In this document: positions 43,460 to 50,513 of the stretch, piece by piece
How positions within the stretch are numbered: the first letter of the stretch is position 1
Layout: each line of letters opens with the position of its first letter
Source: Pelagibacterales bacterium SAG-MED37
Lineage (GTDB): Bacteria; Pseudomonadota; Alphaproteobacteria; Pelagibacterales; Pelagibacteraceae
Direction of reading: 5' to 3'
DNA length: 64,000 bases
Assembly: GCA_014653605.1 (NCBI GenBank)
Contig: JACWEG010000001.1
Location: 121,118-185,117, forward strand
Made by a program: the position numbers and the translations under genes
Notes under the pieces: generated by a model
What the model saw: the letters and a program-made list of their open reading frames with translations, nothing else
The model's database searches: none
Told to the model about the DNA's origin: nothing

Positions 43460-44302
43460 ATGAACGACCAAGATATAACCGTTATAATCACCTCTTTTCA
43501 TAGTGGTGAAAAAATTTTTAATTGCATTGAGTCAATAAATAAGGCTGTAAAGATCATTGTAGTAGAGAATTCAAATGATCAAGAACTAAAAGAAAAAATT
43601 CAATCGAAATATAAAAATGTAGATTGTATCTTATCAAAGGAGAATTTAGGTTATGGAGCAGGAAACAATCTGGGCTTATCAAAGGTCCTGACTAACTATG
43701 CATTAATTGTTAATCCTGATGTAACTTTAGAAAATGATACGATAGATAATTTTTTTTTAACTATTAAGAATATTAAAAATTTTGGAATAATTGCCCCAAT
43801 ATCAAAAGATGAGATATATACTAATTTTAGTATAGATAGTGATAAAAATCTTAAAGAAGTTGAAAGTGTAAAAGGGTTTGCCATGTTTTTAAGCATGAAT
43901 AATTTAAAAGAAATTAAATTTTTTGATGAAAATTTTTTCCTTTATTTTGAAGAAATTGATTTATGTAAAAGAATCAGAAAAAATGATATTAAAATATATA
44001 TTGATCCTTCAATCAAAGTAAATCATTTAGGAGGGACGTCTCATAATTCTGAAATAAACAAAACAATGGAACTATCAAGAAATTGGCATTGGATGTGGTC
44101 GTCTTTTTATTATCATAAAAAGCACTATGGATATATTAACGCTCTTCTTAAGATTTCTCCAAAATTACTATCATCTTTAACTAAGTTTATTTTTTATTTA
44201 TTAATTTTTCAAAAATTTAAAAGTGATATTTATAAACACAGAGTTTTTGGCATTATTAACTCTGTTTTATTAAAAAAATCATGGTATAGACCTAGAATCT
44301 AA
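43460..44302 (+). CDS. Glycosyltransferase family 2
   Basis: A 280-residue GT-A-fold glycosyltransferase, cytoplasmic side of the membrane. It has VIITSFHSGEKIFNCIESI at the start, NLGYGAGNNLGLS, and the metal/donor region LIVNPDVTLEND (a D-x-D-like motif). LYFEEIDLCKRIRK is the rhamnosyltransferase-like acceptor segment. The last third is hydrophobic or basic and probably binds the membrane. It begins 13 bp after the tRNA and heads a sugar-modification group. Confidence 0.9.
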   Translation: MNDQDITVIITSFHSGEKIFNCIESINKAVKIIVVENSNDQELKEKIQSKYKNVDCILSKENLGYGAGNNLGLSKVLTNYALIVNPDVTLENDTIDNFFLTIKNIKNFGIIAPISKDEIYTNFSIDSDKNLKEVESVKGFAMFLSMNNLKEIKFFDENFFLYFEEIDLCKRIRKNDIKIYIDPSIKVNHLGGTSHNSEINKTMELSRNWHWMWSSFYYHKKHYGYINALLKISPKLLSSLTKFIFYLLIFQKFKSDIYKHRVFGIINSVLLKKSWYRPRI

Positions 44303-44324
44303 TATTGAATTTATTTAATTTAAA

Positions 44325-45338
44325 ATGACAAAAAAGTACAAGATATTAATTACAGGAGCTGCAGGTTTTTTAGGTTCTCATTTATCAGAAAAATTAACTG
44401 AACTAGGCCATACTGTTGTTGGAATAGACAACATGATAGGAGGTTATAAAGATAACATCCCAAATAATATTGAGTTCCACGACTTAGATTGTTGTGACTT
44501 TCCAAAAATTAAAAAAATTATGAAAGATGTAGAAGTGGTTTATCATTGTGCAGCAACAGCACATGAAGGTCTATCAGTCTTTTCCCCGTATGAAATTACA
44601 AGAAACAATTATTTAGCTTCTGTTTCAATTTTTTCAGCAGCTATAAATGAAAAAGTAAAAAGAATAATTTATTGTTCATCAATGGCAAGATACGGTGATC
44701 AAAAAACACCTTTTACTGAAGATATGAAAGCAAAACCAGTAGATCCTTATGGCATTTCTAAAGTTGCAGCAGAAGAAGTTTTAAAAAATTTGTGTGAACT
44801 AAATAATATTGAGTATGTTATTGCTGTCCCACACAATATAATTGGTCCAAAACAAATTTATACAGATCCTTATAGAAATGTTGTTTCTATATTTTTAAAT
44901 AGAATGATGCAGGGAAAAGCGCCTATAGTTTATGGTGATGGCGAGCAAAGAAGATGCTTTTCTTATATTGATGACTGCTTAAGCTGCATGATACCTATGC
45001 TAGATCAAGAAAATTTGAATAAACAGATTATTAATATAGGGCCAGATGAGGAATTTGTTACCGTTAATAAAGTTGTTGAAATTTGCTCTAATATTACTGG
45101 TTCAAATCTAGAGCCTATTCATATGGCAGATAGACCTCAGGAAGTAAAACATGCAACCTGTTCAGCGGATAAAGCAAGAAAACTTTTAAATTATGAAACA
45201 AAAGTTAATTTAAATGAAGGAATTAAGGAAACTTATGAGTATATAAAAAAAAGAGGTACTAAAGATTTCGATTACAGGCTATCAATTGAGATTGATAATG
45301 ATTTAACTCCCAAAACTTGGAAAAATAAAGAAATTTAG
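44325..45338 (+). CDS. NAD-dependent nucleotide-sugar epimerase/dehydratase
   Basis: An extended SDR of 337 residues. The NAD motif TGAAGFLGSHL lies at about 9-19, followed by VYHCAATAHEGLS, the catalytic Ser region YCSSMARYGDQ and the YxxxK pair in DPYGISKVAAEE. It resembles UDP-glucose 4-epimerase/GDP-mannose-type enzymes. It probably supplies or alters a sugar for surface polysaccharide together with the upstream GT2. The exact sugar is unknown. Confidence 0.88.
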   Translation: MTKKYKILITGAAGFLGSHLSEKLTELGHTVVGIDNMIGGYKDNIPNNIEFHDLDCCDFPKIKKIMKDVEVVYHCAATAHEGLSVFSPYEITRNNYLASVSIFSAAINEKVKRIIYCSSMARYGDQKTPFTEDMKAKPVDPYGISKVAAEEVLKNLCELNNIEYVIAVPHNIIGPKQIYTDPYRNVVSIFLNRMMQGKAPIVYGDGEQRRCFSYIDDCLSCMIPMLDQENLNKQIINIGPDEEFVTVNKVVEICSNITGSNLEPIHMADRPQEVKHATCSADKARKLLNYETKVNLNEGIKETYEYIKKRGTKDFDYRLSIEIDNDLTPKTWKNKEI

Positions 45339-45344
45339 TATTAA

Positions 45345-46022
45345 TTAAAAAATTTTTTTAAATTCTTCTAAGCTTATAACTCTTAAATATTCTTTATAAT
45401 TCGTATAATAGTCTCTAAATTTTAAATTATTAATTGGTTTATTTAAATTTAGAATTGAAGAATTTTTATTCTTTTTAATTACCCCGATTCCCTGATCCAT
45501 TTCACAAGTAAAAATTTCTAAATCTTCTTTTTGTCTAAGATCAGTTATTGCTTTCCAAACATCTCCGTTCCAAATCATTCTATATCTAGGTACTGCTTGT
45601 TTACTTAAGCTATCAGGCATACAATCATGAACTAAAATTATTCCATTTTCTTTAAGGCAATCAACTGAATTCAAAATATCTTTCTTTACTTGATCGTATG
45701 TATGTAAACCATCAATAAAAATGATATCAAACATTTCATCATTTGCTTGAAAAAAATCATCACTTGTTTTTCTTATGTTACCACCACTTACAGGATCAAC
45801 ACCCTTTTTATTATTAATTCGAATTTTTGAAAATAATTGATCTTGATCACAACCAATTTCTAGATAGTCAGAATAATTATTTTTTTCAATTAAATACTCA
45901 ATTAAATCCCACCGATGATAGTTTTGTGGAAAATTATAAGTTAATTTTCCTTTAAAGCTTTCAACAAAAGTTTGATAATAAATTTTTCTGAAAAATTTAG
46001 TGAATTTATTAAGTTTTTCCAT
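45345..46022 (-). CDS. Class I SAM-dependent methyltransferase (Methyltransf_24 type)
   Basis: A 225-residue methyltransferase with SAM motif I in YLEIGCDQDQLF (about residue 52). The IIFIDGLHTYDQVKKDI segment and LVHDCMPDS are typical of the Methyltransf_24 group, which includes sugar and natural-product O-methyltransferases. It faces the epimerase gene, so it may methylate the same glycan; this is inference. It is 10 bp upstream of nothing on its own strand apart from apt, which starts at 46560. Confidence 0.82.
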   Translation of the reverse strand: MEKLNKFTKFFRKIYYQTFVESFKGKLTYNFPQNYHRWDLIEYLIEKNNYSDYLEIGCDQDQLFSKIRINNKKGVDPVSGGNIRKTSDDFFQANDEMFDIIFIDGLHTYDQVKKDILNSVDCLKENGIILVHDCMPDSLSKQAVPRYRMIWNGDVWKAITDLRQKEDLEIFTCEMDQGIGVIKKNKNSSILNLNKPINNLKFRDYYTNYKEYLRVISLEEFKKIF

Positions 46023-46032
46023 TTACAAGATT

Positions 46033-46560
46033 TTAGTGTCCAGGGAATTCTATTAAATTTTCAACTTTATACCCCTTATTAATTAAATTATCAGATCCAT
46101 TTAAGTCAAACAAGTTAATTACAAAAATAAAAGCAGCAACATTACCTTTAGAAATTTCTATAAGTCTTGCTGCAGCTTCTGCTGTACCTCCTGTAGCAAT
46201 TAAATCATCAATTATCAAAACTGAGTCTTTTTCATTTATAGAGTCTTTGTGAACTTCAATCGTTGCTTTTCCGTATTCAAGTTCAAAATCAACTGAATGA
46301 ACATCAGCAGGTAGTTTATTTTTTTTTCGCAGCATAACAAAAGGTTTTTTAAGTATATAGGAAACAGCTGATGCAAAAACAAAACCTCTAGACTCAATTG
46401 CAGCTACTTTAGAAAATTCAAATTTTTTTGATCTTTCTACAATTTGGTTAATAGTTTCTGCAAATGCATTTTCATCTTTAATAAGTGTTGTAATATCTCT
46501 AAATAAGATTCCTTTTTTTGGATAATCTGGTATTGATCTAATATATTTTTTAAGGTCCAT
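46033..46560 (-). CDS. apt: Adenine phosphoribosyltransferase
   Basis: Salvages adenine to AMP. The 175-residue protein has the type I PRTase PRPP motif VLIIDDLIATGGTAEAA (about 117-133), the N-terminal IRSIPDYPKKGILFRDIT and VAAIESRGFVFA, all normal for Apt. It is divergent from the MTA-nucleosidase-like gene with only 7 bp between the starts. That neighbour would release adenine, so the two form a salvage pair. Confidence 0.95.
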   Translation of the reverse strand: MDLKKYIRSIPDYPKKGILFRDITTLIKDENAFAETINQIVERSKKFEFSKVAAIESRGFVFASAVSYILKKPFVMLRKKNKLPADVHSVDFELEYGKATIEVHKDSINEKDSVLIIDDLIATGGTAEAAARLIEISKGNVAAFIFVINLFDLNGSDNLINKGYKVENLIEFPGH

Positions 46561-46567
46561 TATTTAT

Positions 46568-47101
46568 ATGAATAGAATATTTGTCGCTGCATTAAAAGAG
46601 GAAACCCATGGTTTAAATTTTTTTTATCATACAGGTGCTGGTAAAATTAATGCAACTTATAATTTAACAAAATTGATTAAGACTCATCAACCTAAAGAGG
46701 TAATCAATTTTGGGAGTGCTGGAGCTATTTCTAAAAATTTGGAAGGTATAGTAGAGTGTACAAAATTTTATCAGAGAGACATGGATGTGACTGCTCTAAT
46801 GAATTTAAAAATTGGTGAAACTCCTTTTGATGATATTAATGAAATAATTCTATCTTCCAATGGATATTCTTGTGGGACAGGAGATAGCTTTGTAACCGGT
46901 TCAATTCCTATTAAAGTAGATGTTGTTGATATGGAGGCCTATGCATTTGCAAAAGTTTGTAAATTAGAAAATATTAATTTTAGATGTTTTAAATTTATTT
47001 CTGATAATGCAGATGAATCTGCAAGTTTAGATTGGAAGGAAAATTGTAAAAAGGGTGCAAAATTATTTGAGCAAAAATTAAAAGATTTGACTTTATTATA
47101 A
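46568..47101 (+). CDS. MTA/SAH nucleosidase-like protein (short form)
   Basis: A 177-residue nucleoside phosphorylase-fold protein resembling 5'-methylthioadenosine/S-adenosylhomocysteine nucleosidase. It shows the beginning FVAALKEE, an INFGSAGAI segment, VDMEAYAFAKVC (the ribose-binding Met-Glu) and FISDNADESA (the catalytic Asp region). The usual length is about 230, so it is short, but key motifs remain. It would cleave the methylthioadenosine made by the downstream spermidine synthase, and Apt would use the adenine. Start ATG is 8 bp from the apt start. Confidence 0.8.
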   Translation: MNRIFVAALKEETHGLNFFYHTGAGKINATYNLTKLIKTHQPKEVINFGSAGAISKNLEGIVECTKFYQRDMDVTALMNLKIGETPFDDINEIILSSNGYSCGTGDSFVTGSIPIKVDVVDMEAYAFAKVCKLENINFRCFKFISDNADESASLDWKENCKKGAKLFEQKLKDLTLL

Positions 47102-47119
47102 AACTCATATTTGATTGAT

Positions 47120-47149
47120 ATTTAAGTTAAAAATCTGCACTTAAATTTT
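47120..47149 (+). other. Hairpin in the speDE leader
   Basis: Arms ATTTAAGT and ACTTAAAT (8 bp, 11-base loop) followed by TTT lie in the 65-base gap ahead of the fusion gene. It might be a weak terminator for the nucleosidase gene or a leader element. The gene then has an unusually strong ribosome site (AGGGGGA). Support is only structural. Confidence 0.35.
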
Positions 47150-47166
47150 GTAGGGGGAAGATATAA

Positions 47167-48207
47167 ATGACTAAGGTCGGGGAACATATTACACTGGATA
47201 TAATAGGCACAACTAAAGAGTATGACCCTTCCATATTTGAAAAGGTAATTCACGATATTGCAAAAGCTGCAAAAGTAACAATCTTAAATATCTCAAAATA
47301 TAAATTTGAGCCACAAGGATTTACAATCTTAGCTTTATTAGCTGAAAGTCACATAAGCTTTCACACATTTCCTGAAAAAGGAATTATAAGTTTTGATTTT
47401 TTTACATGCGGTAAGGTAAATCCTTCTGTAGCAATTGATATAATTAAAAAAAATTTTGAGTATAAAAGAATTGTCAAGAAAGAATTTAACAGAGATACAA
47501 AATCTTTATATCACGATATTTATAGTTCGCCAGGTTTGCAAAAGTCATACGTTGTAAATAATGTGTTAGAAGATTTTAAATCTAAAGTCGGTCAACATAT
47601 AGAAATTTTAGAATTAGAAGAATTTGGTAAATCTTTATTTATTGATGGTGAAATTCAAGTAGCATCATCAGATGAACATTTATATAGTTCAACTTTCGTT
47701 GGCTCAGGTCTAAAATTAAATAAAGATAATGAGAGAGCGGCAATCATTGGTGGTGGTGATGGTGGTGTTGCTAGAGAATGTATTTCTAAAAAATTTAATT
47801 TTGTTGATTGGTATGAGCTTGATCCTGAAGTAGTTGAAATATGCAATAAACATTTGGGCAGTATTAGTAATAAAGCTACAGAAAAAAATTCTGTTAAATG
47901 TGTTTGGGGCGATGCTTTTGAAAGTATTAAAGCTGTAGGTGATGATACTTATGATCATATATTTGTAGATTTAAATGATGATCAGTTTTGCATTGATTTA
48001 GCTGCAAAAAATATGGACTCACTTGTAAGGATTTTAAAACCAAAAGGGGTAATTACAACTCAAGTTGGTAGTCAAGACAAAAAACCTCTTCAAGTTGAAA
48101 ATTGGTTAAACGTTTTTAATCATCATTTTGGAAATACTAATTTATCGAGAGTTTATATACCTAGTTTTGATTGCTCTTGGAATTTCTCATCTTCAATCAA
48201 CCACTAA
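47167..48207 (+). CDS. speDE: S-adenosylmethionine decarboxylase-spermidine synthase fusion (SpeD-SpeE)
   Basis: One 346-residue chain carries two consecutive enzymes. Residues about 1-110 are a bacterial AdoMet decarboxylase with the self-cleavage site ESHISFHTFPEKG (Ser becomes pyruvoyl). Residues about 115-346 are an aminopropyltransferase with QVASSDEHLYS, the SAM-type motif IIGGGDGGVAREC and the acidic site VDLNDDQ. It makes decarboxylated AdoMet and joins it to putrescine to give spermidine and methylthioadenosine. The SpeE part is shorter than usual at its end. Self-cleavage at the Ser would separate a short beta chain from the alpha-SpeE chain. Confidence 0.88.
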   Translation: MTKVGEHITLDIIGTTKEYDPSIFEKVIHDIAKAAKVTILNISKYKFEPQGFTILALLAESHISFHTFPEKGIISFDFFTCGKVNPSVAIDIIKKNFEYKRIVKKEFNRDTKSLYHDIYSSPGLQKSYVVNNVLEDFKSKVGQHIEILELEEFGKSLFIDGEIQVASSDEHLYSSTFVGSGLKLNKDNERAAIIGGGDGGVARECISKKFNFVDWYELDPEVVEICNKHLGSISNKATEKNSVKCVWGDAFESIKAVGDDTYDHIFVDLNDDQFCIDLAAKNMDSLVRILKPKGVITTQVGSQDKKPLQVENWLNVFNHHFGNTNLSRVYIPSFDCSWNFSSSINH

Positions 48208-48271: not shown

Positions 48272-49102
48272 ATGAATATATTAAAAAAGACTATTTTTTC
48301 AGTTCTTGCTTCTTTGTTAATTATTGGAAACGTTTATGCGTCTGATAAAATAAAGATTGGAACTGAAGGTGCTTATCCTCCATGGAATTCAAAAGATGCT
48401 TCTGGTAAGCTAATTGGTTTTGAAGTTGAATTGGCTTGGTCATTATGTAGATACATGGGAAAACAATGTACGATAGTAGAGCAAGATTGGGATGGAATGA
48501 TACCAGCTTTAATTATGAGAAAATTTGATGCGATTATGGCAGGAATGTCAATAACTGCTGAAAGACAAAAAGCTATTAGCTTTTCACAAGGTTATGCAGA
48601 TGAAGTTGCATCTTTAGCTGTTATGAAAGGATCAGATCTAGAGGGAATGAATACTCCTGAGGGTGTTAATCTTACTTTAGGTGGTTCAAGCGTTAACAAA
48701 GCTCTTAAAACTTTGACAGGAGCTCTTGCTGGAAAAACTGTTTGCACTCAAACGGCTACAATTCATCAAAACTTTTTAGAGTCAGGTGATGTTGGTAAAA
48801 TAAATTTAAGAACTTATAAAACTCAAGATGAGGTAAACTTAGATTTAGCTTCTGGTAGATGTGACGTTGCATTAGCTGCAGCAGTAGCTTTTACTGATTA
48901 TGCAGAAAAGTCTGGAAAACCAGTTGTACTTGTTGGTCCGACTTTTTCAGGTGGAGCATTTGGTAATGGCGTTGGAGTTGGTATCAGAAAAGATGATACT
49001 GAACTTTTAAAAGCATTTAACAAAGCTATTAATCAAGCAAGAAAAAATGGAGACATTAGTAGAATAGCTACTAAATGGTTCGGTTTCGACGCTTCTATGT
49101 AA
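48272..49102 (+). CDS. Polar amino acid ABC transporter substrate-binding protein
   Basis: A periplasmic family-3 binding protein of 276 residues with a signal peptide (about 1-22, ending VYA) and mature start KIKIGTEGAYPPWNSKDASGKLIGFEVEL, a hallmark of HisJ/ArtJ/OccT-type proteins. Later segments (AGMSITAERQKAISFSQGY and ATKWFGFD) also fit. Start is ATG 48272 behind AAGGAGA; the track's 48-residue extension covers the end of speDE and is rejected. Ligand is probably a basic or opine-type amino acid. Confidence 0.92.
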   Translation: MNILKKTIFSVLASLLIIGNVYASDKIKIGTEGAYPPWNSKDASGKLIGFEVELAWSLCRYMGKQCTIVEQDWDGMIPALIMRKFDAIMAGMSITAERQKAISFSQGYADEVASLAVMKGSDLEGMNTPEGVNLTLGGSSVNKALKTLTGALAGKTVCTQTATIHQNFLESGDVGKINLRTYKTQDEVNLDLASGRCDVALAAAVAFTDYAEKSGKPVVLVGPTFSGGAFGNGVGVGIRKDDTELLKAFNKAINQARKNGDISRIATKWFGFDASM

Positions 49103-49117
49103 TAATTTATTTGAAAC

Positions 49118-49142
49118 GGCGGTTATTTAATTAACCGCCTTT
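49118..49142 (+). terminator. Attenuator/terminator hairpin after the amino acid binding-protein gene
   Basis: An 8-bp GC-rich stem GGCGGTTA/TAACCGCC with a 6-base loop, followed by TTT, lies 15 bp after the binding-protein stop and 7 bp before the permease ATG. It resembles the hairpins after the other binding-protein genes in this window, although its T-tract is short. Confidence 0.75.
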
Positions 49143-49146
49143 CATT

Positions 49147-49839
49147 ATGGAACTTCTAGCATTTGGAGATACTGGTTGGGGTGATGAGTTATTTTATGCA
49201 ACTCTGATGACAATCGCTGTGTCAATAACAGCAATGCTTATTGGTTTTCTTTTCGCTTTAATATTTACACCACTTAAATTATCAAAAAACAAATTTTTAA
49301 ATTTAATTGCAAATTCCTACACTACAGTTATAAGGGGTGTTCCAGAGTTATTAGTAATTTACCTTTTATTTTTTGGTGGAACTGGTGCTGTAATGTATGT
49401 TGCTTCAATTTTTGGCTATAATGAATACATTGAAATAAATGCATTTATTACAGGAGCATTTTCGATCGGGATCATTTCTGGTGCTTATTCAACAGAAGTT
49501 TTTAGAGGGGCAATTCAATCTATTGATAAAGGTCAGTTTGAGGCAGCTAATGTTTTAGGATTAAATAAGTTTGGTAAATTCTTTAAAATTATTCTACCTC
49601 AAACTTTAAGATTAGCCATACCAAATTTGAGTAATGTTTGGCAAATTACTTTAAAAGATACATCATTAATTTCAGTAACTGGTTTAGTTGAAATTATGAG
49701 ACAATCATATATTGCTGCTGGTTCCACTAGAGATCCATTGTTCTTTTATTCTTTTGCAGCAGTTTTATATTTATTGCTTACTTTTTTAAGCATGAAATTA
49801 ATTAATAAACTAGAAGTCAGATATAGCAGGGGATATTAA
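49147..49839 (+). CDS. Polar amino acid ABC transporter permease (HisQ/OccQ-type)
   Basis: A 230-residue inner-membrane permease, about five helices, HisQM type. Present are the N-terminal YATLMTIAVSITAML segment, RGVPELLVIYLLFFGG, the GAYSTEVFRGAI segment, and the ATPase-binding loop ANVLGLNKFGKFFKIILPQTLRLAIP. Directly abuts the second permease (overlap of one base). Confidence 0.92.
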   Translation: MELLAFGDTGWGDELFYATLMTIAVSITAMLIGFLFALIFTPLKLSKNKFLNLIANSYTTVIRGVPELLVIYLLFFGGTGAVMYVASIFGYNEYIEINAFITGAFSIGIISGAYSTEVFRGAIQSIDKGQFEAANVLGLNKFGKFFKIILPQTLRLAIPNLSNVWQITLKDTSLISVTGLVEIMRQSYIAAGSTRDPLFFYSFAAVLYLLLTFLSMKLINKLEVRYSRGY

Positions 49840-50513
49840 TGGATATTGAACTTATGGTAAGCAGTTTTCCTAAATTATTAGGCGCCACTGTTATAACTTT
49901 AAAACTTTTATCAGTATCTTTAGTTATCGGTTTATTTATAGGTTTAATATTTGCAATTTTAAGATTAAACAAAAATATTTTTATTAATAGATTTGCATAC
50001 GGGTATTCATATATTTTTAGGGGAACGCCTCTTTTAGTTCAAATATTCATTATATATTTTGGCTTAGGTCAAATCGAGTATCTAAGGTCAACGGTTTTAT
50101 GGGTAATTTTAAAAGAACCATATTGGTGTGCAATTATTGCCTTTGCATTAAATACTGGAGCCTATACTTCAGAGATTTTGAGATCTGCATTTCAAACAAT
50201 AAAACCAGGTTTGATTGAAGCAGGTAAAAGTTTAGGTATTTCAAATAAAATAATTTTTTATAAAATTCAAATACCAATAGCGATAAGACAATCTCTTCCA
50301 GCATATGGTAATGAAATTATTTTGATGATGAAAGGCACTTCTCTAGCTAGCACAGTAACCTTAATGGATTTAACTGGTGTTGCTAAATATATCATTTCTA
50401 CAACTTTTAAGCCTGTAGAGGTATTTATTGTGGCAGGAGGTATATATTTATTTATGACGTTTATTATTCATAATGCGATTAAATATTTAGAAAAAAAATA
50501 TAGTTTTAATTAA
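49839..50513 (+). CDS. Polar amino acid ABC transporter permease (HisM/OccM-type)
   Basis: The partner permease of 224 residues, with RGTPLLVQIFIIYFGLGQ, GAYTSEILRSAFQTI and the EAA loop GKSLGISNKIIFYKIQIPIAIRQSLP. It overlaps the first permease by one base. No ATPase gene follows: the next gene is on the opposite strand, so the importer must borrow a nucleotide-binding subunit from elsewhere. Confidence 0.92.
   Translation: MDIELMVSSFPKLLGATVITLKLLSVSLVIGLFIGLIFAILRLNKNIFINRFAYGYSYIFRGTPLLVQIFIIYFGLGQIEYLRSTVLWVILKEPYWCAIIAFALNTGAYTSEILRSAFQTIKPGLIEAGKSLGISNKIIFYKIQIPIAIRQSLPAYGNEIILMMKGTSLASTVTLMDLTGVAKYIISTTFKPVEVFIVAGGIYLFMTFIIHNAIKYLEKKYSFN

Follow-up and report, generated by a model that had tools for sequence, protein, structure and literature searches.

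A minority of SAR11 genomes carry one compact nucleosidase gene between apt, for adenine phosphoribosyltransferase, and speDE, for a SpeD-SpeE fusion, where it appears to stand in for the three-gene cassette of about 2.6 kb that occupies the same position in the commonest SAR11 layout. We consider it probable that at this minority locus spermidine is made, its by-product methylthioadenosine (MTA) is hydrolysed, the adenine is kept via Apt and methylthioribose is lost, and that the two modules are exchangeable. SAR11 ranks among the most abundant bacterial groups of the ocean and relies on reduced organic sulfur. The fate of MTA sulfur and carbon in these cells, recycled or discarded, bears on who supplies whom with organic sulfur. 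The locus offers a clean genetic contrast, with one address, two chemistries and repeated switches, and it suggests that loci regarded as 'streamlined' may differ through module swapping, beyond gene loss alone. In a search of the open literature we found no paper on this polymorphism between a nucleosidase and an mtnP-mtnA-aldolase cassette.

Locus organization

The window analysed here is a stretch of 64,000 nucleotides from a SAR11 (Pelagibacteraceae) genome; the nearest loci, from single-cell genomes of Pelagibacteraceae or Pelagibacterales, are 98–99% identical to it in the SpeD-SpeE fusion. The initial annotation had described divergent apt and nucleosidase genes followed by the fusion on the plus strand at 46033–48207, and its coordinates and strands were confirmed (Table 1). 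The three functions that it assigned, and the route from MTA through adenine to AMP, are likewise supported by an Apt that reaches the equivalog score of two families, a PF01048 nucleosidase and the domains of the fusion, with MTA as the presumed substrate.

Table 1. Features of the apt-nucleosidase-speDE locus and the adjoining transporter genes (window positions)
Feature	Positions	Strand	Evidence or remarks
apt, adenine phosphoribosyltransferase, 175 aa	46033-46560	-	NF002634 211.6 bits (cut-off 170); TIGR01090 198.9 bits (cut-off 185.9)
Gap TATTTAT between the divergent starts of apt and the nucleosidase gene	46561-46567		7 bp
Compact MTAN-fold nucleosidase, 177 aa	46568-47101	+	PF01048; invariant catalytic residues; structure model
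Intergenic leader of speDE	47102-47166	+	65 bp
SpeD-SpeE fusion, 346 aa	47167-48207	+	AdoMet_dc, Spermine_synt_N and Spermine_synth domains; S61/H66/C81; GGGDGG at 195
Amino-acid (Lys/Arg/Orn-like) ABC substrate-binding protein	48272-49102	+	TIGR01096 233.9 bits (cut-off 256); synteny
Two ABC permeases of the same transporter	49147-49839, 49839-50513	+	Domain matches; synteny

Given that the starts of apt and the nucleosidase gene are only 7 bp apart, promoter and ribosome-binding elements must fall within coding sequences, each promoter region overlapping the other gene. This start-to-start gap measures 5–7 bp in the nucleosidase loci of the same genus, L092 excepted, widens to 30–37 bp in L088–L090 and L092, and is typically 41 bp in mtnP loci. 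Compared with the leader of speDE seen here, mtnP-type loci with a short aldolase are tighter, the aldolase stop codon almost touching speDE. An Rfam scan of the window for riboswitches returned only one tRNA.

The synteny is conserved. Among the 61 related loci with 6 kb upstream of speDE, a divergent apt lies within that distance in 52, and a gene for an MTA-type enzyme or mtnA is found upstream in all 61, so the association of these genes exceeds chance. The apt side (43460–46022 in the window, and likewise in related loci) is a variable region with glycosyltransferase, epimerase and methyltransferase genes, and the speDE side is conserved. Downstream of speDE the substrate-binding protein and the two permeases (48272–50513 in the window) recur in related loci wherever the contig extends, with no ATPase gene seen adjoining them.

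The SpeD part of the fusion has a class 1b AdoMetDC domain (TIGR03330, 97.6 bits, over the cut-off) joined to an aminopropyltransferase, and it keeps the Ser, His and Cys processing residues, which correspond to S63/H68/C83 of the T. maritima AdoMetDC (PMC10407285). The protein is already of a known kind: in a study on such fusions, the SAR11 isolate orthologues from Ca. Pelagibacter (WP_008544956 and WP_011282223), which resemble it in architecture and lineage, had measured AdoMetDC and spermidine, spermine and thermospermine synthase activity, and a speD mutant regained spermidine with them (PMC11107197). That study has the fusion as its subject and does not, in the text available, treat the neighbouring MTA-disposal genes. 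By analogy with these orthologues, the window fusion would act as an AdoMetDC, and not as a neofunctionalised ODC or ADC, forming decarboxylated AdoMet and moving the aminopropyl group onto putrescine, which frees MTA. The putrescine-producing genes that the initial annotation looked to elsewhere in the genome were found in L237 (1011–4118), as a cluster of an ADC-type decarboxylase gene with SpeY/deoxyhypusine-synthase-like and agmatinase-like genes, the latter two named by eye from the sequence. A SAR11 homologue of the ADC-type decarboxylase decarboxylates arginine (PMC9992855), which makes this enzyme a possible source of putrescine, and the arginine/lysine/ornithine-type transporter that follows speDE might feed arginine to this route.

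A compact nucleosidase with the MTAN fold

The nucleosidase matches PF01048 with 53 bits (cut-off 25.1) and stays under every NCBIfam cut-off for MTA/SAH nucleosidases (MtnN/Pfs, MTAN), with 69.8 against 169 bits for NF004079, 45.8 against 73.8 for TIGR01704, and 94.2 against 129 for the best model, the compact 'nucleosidase' NF004168. We therefore file it as MTAN-like and not as a certified MTAN. It belongs to the same length class as this compact nucleosidase (PRK05634/NF004168, model length 185 aa) and differs from it by the score; in a search of 385 alphaproteobacterial genomes, no genome reached the NF004168 cut-off.

The AlphaFold model of the protein is confident (pLDDT 89, pTM 0.87), and the 50 matches listed in a fold search against the PDB are all MTANs or futalosine hydrolases. 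With MTANs as the best of these matches and PF01048 over its cut-off, the predicted structure has the MTAN fold. TM-scores normalised by query reach 0.70–0.84 in the top matches, whereas identity in the fold alignments is only 18–26%, the protein has 177 aa against about 230 in MTANs, and its gene adjoins apt and speDE. Across 36 aligned relatives from SAR11, other alphaproteobacteria and viruses, E12, D121-M122-E123 and D146 are invariant, and E12, M122-E123 and D146 appear to be counterparts of the Glu, Met-Glu and Asp that MTANs use in catalysis. We take them, by motif and partly by the alignments, to be equivalent to Glu12, Met173-Glu174 and Asp197 of the E. coli enzyme; Glu12 and Asp197 mutants are named among the PDB matches.

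Two states at one address

The commonest SAR11 layout has apt on one side and mtnP, mtnA, a class II aldolase gene and speDE on the other (for example L010, 3398–5990). In cassettes of this type the MTA phosphorylase (MTAP) scores 444.7 bits and MtnA 453 bits, both over the cut-off; the aldolase is nearest to FucA (fuculose-phosphate-aldolase-like, 194.9 bits, under the FucA cut-off) and gives just 65.4 bits with MtnB. The DHAP shunt, known from E. coli, Rhodospirillum and Rhodopseudomonas, consists of mtnP (or mtnN plus mtnK), mtnA and a class II aldolase. With its MTAP, MtnA and aldolase the SAR11 cassette looks like this shunt and would, in most SAR11, take the sugar on to DHAP and a methylthio-aldehyde, but the SAR11 genes adjoin speDE and apt, and the window lineage is without all three. 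A third version (L035, 3882–5915) has, in place of the short class II aldolase, a 677-aa fusion of aldolase and short-chain dehydrogenase that is encoded on the opposite strand, recurs in seven more loci (L020, L022, L043, L048, L063, L066 and L073) and might oxidise the aldehyde product.

Ten of 147 genomes of the family contain the nucleosidase, nine of them chromosomally; that of G010 was left out of the counts because its contig bears phage-like genes and matches the viral contig L204. Neither a full-length MTA phosphorylase nor MtnA is found in any of the nine, against 106 and 108, respectively, of the other genomes among the 147. The probability of zero overlap by chance is 5e-6 for the 147 genomes and 1.5e-6 for the 53 most complete, with relatedness ignored in both cases. 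Both states share the address apt-X-speDE, and well-supported branches of the speDE tree force at least five changes of state; L012, for example, is the sister of the window clade (support 99/99) and yet of the aldolase type.

Divergence points the same way. Between loci of the same genus, leaving aside the near-identical pairs L085/L006 and L086/L087, the nucleosidase is 63–80% identical, compared with 78–91% for apt and 83–93% for speDE, while MTAP in mtnP-type loci averages 90–94% (minimum 86%) at comparable speDE distance. The nucleosidase is thus far more diverged than its flanks, which argues for alleles that long predate the surrounding backbone or came from outside it. In part the nucleosidase may simply have evolved faster, but across genera its conservation equals that of its neighbours, all three proteins of the window genus being about 58–69% identical to those of other genera. 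An AU test does not reject one common origin of the nucleosidase allele within the genus (p = 0.42), so the case for repeated exchange leans on the changes of state and on the contrast in divergence. At the level of sequence, the two modules behave as mutually exclusive and repeatedly exchanged.

Substrate and product fate

SahH was present in 20 of 20 genomes tested, and no full-length MTAP, MtnA, or MtnK over the cut-off was found in the window genome or the eight other nucleosidase genomes. With SahH universal where tested and MtnK not found, the most likely reaction is cleavage of MTA to adenine and methylthioribose, the products expected of an MTAN. A class II aldolase was not found in eight of the nine nucleosidase genomes, the exception being G078 with one unlinked aldolase. 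The set that defines the DHAP shunt or methionine salvage (MtnP or MtnK, MtnA, and an aldolase or MtnB) is accordingly not found in the window genome, which is 79% complete, and each absence from it is weak evidence when taken singly. An MtnK-like match near sahH was rejected: it scores 19–35 bits where the cut-off is 275, is present alongside loci of either type and, within the window genome, lies in a sahH-tsaE-kinase-nucleotidyltransferase context that we read as AmgK/MurU. An unfamiliar kinase may use methylthioribose instead.

We infer a half-salvage as the most likely outcome. The nucleosidase would split MTA, and probably 5'-deoxyadenosine too, Apt would by its family convert the adenine to AMP, and methylthioribose would be a dead end that stays unused and probably exits the cell; some E. 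coli strains do excrete methylthioribose (PMC6302742). The initial annotation had seen synthesis and salvage joined in an example of genome streamlining. The first part holds for adenine and fails for methylthioribose, with MtnK, MtnA and a class II aldolase not found in the window genome; as for the second, the locus is compact, but this form, present in a minority of 9 among 147 genomes, stands in place of mtnP-mtnA-aldolase and is a substitution, with a metabolic cost likely, beyond compaction alone.

In its widest form our reading is tentative: possibly, although short of an even chance, SAR11 has two modules for MTA disposal that can replace each other at a single chromosomal site, swapped between lineages from a diverged pool, and carriers of the nucleosidase lose the ribose and the methylthio group with each spermidine produced and release methylthioribose. 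If so, methylthioribose would be a cross-feeding currency of the surface ocean, and the module would indicate sulfur or phosphate status; phosphate is consumed by the phosphorylase and not by the nucleosidase.

Alternative explanations

That the by-product is recycled whole in an efficient streamlined locus, as first proposed, fits the compactness and the conserved apt-speDE synteny, but we regard it as improbable, given that the genes found recover adenine only and that the common SAR11 version is both longer and more complete. We give almost no credence to an SAH nucleosidase feeding the methyl cycle. The family is often annotated as MTA/SAH nucleosidase and the PDB matches are dual-function enzymes, but a full-length SahH in the window genome and SahH in 19 of 19 others searched make an SAH role dispensable and led us to reject SAH as the likely main substrate. 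More weight, although still well on the unlikely side, goes to an enzyme that chiefly clears 5'-deoxyadenosine from radical-SAM reactions, or other adenine nucleosides, with its position beside speDE secondary. MTANs are known to use 5'-deoxyadenosine (PMC6302742), phages carry apt-nucleosidase pairs without speDE adjoining, and the sister genus g5 is informative in both directions. Spermidine synthase is missing from 13 of 13 g5 genomes and a PF01048 gene from 11 of these 13, many of the genomes being incomplete; this joint loss is what would be expected with MTA as the main substrate, while 5'-deoxyadenosine should still be formed there. G005 (a single contig, 99% complete) nevertheless keeps apt-nucleosidase without SpeDE, and G028 keeps the nucleosidase without spermidine synthase, so the enzyme is not strictly tied to spermidine and also has another use, probably 5'-deoxyadenosine. 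MTA as the main substrate also agrees with the placement of the nucleosidase precisely at the mtnP site beside speDE.

The remaining alternative concerns origin, namely that the nucleosidase was taken directly from a phage apt-nucleosidase module. Such modules exist: apt lies directly upstream of the nucleosidase gene, usually overlapping it, in 45 of 80 IMG/VR loci (20 of 37 dereplicated), on contigs that also carry genes for phage replication. When viral and alphaproteobacterial relatives are placed in one tree, however, the SAR11 nucleosidases form one group (support 86) that adjoins two proteins of small-genome alphaproteobacteria (98*), separate from the viral clades, and SAR11 apt, about 80–98% identical when the window is compared with loci of either type from its genus, looks vertically inherited. 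Direct phage origin is thus unsupported by the tree, and we consider it very unlikely.

Viral and alphaproteobacterial pairs

The viral pair loci include L132, L137–L142, L150, L170, L178 and L204, with helicase, thymidylate synthase, primase and DNA polymerase genes nearby; the viral nucleosidases tested had no match in PHROG. L094 (G010:C37), a contig from a SAR11-family bin, bears phage-like genes, among them apt, the nucleosidase gene, a RimK-like gene and HNH, and its apt and nucleosidase are 100% identical to those of the IMG/VR locus L204. Some alphaproteobacteria likewise pair apt with the nucleosidase gene (L205, L209, L212 and L220).
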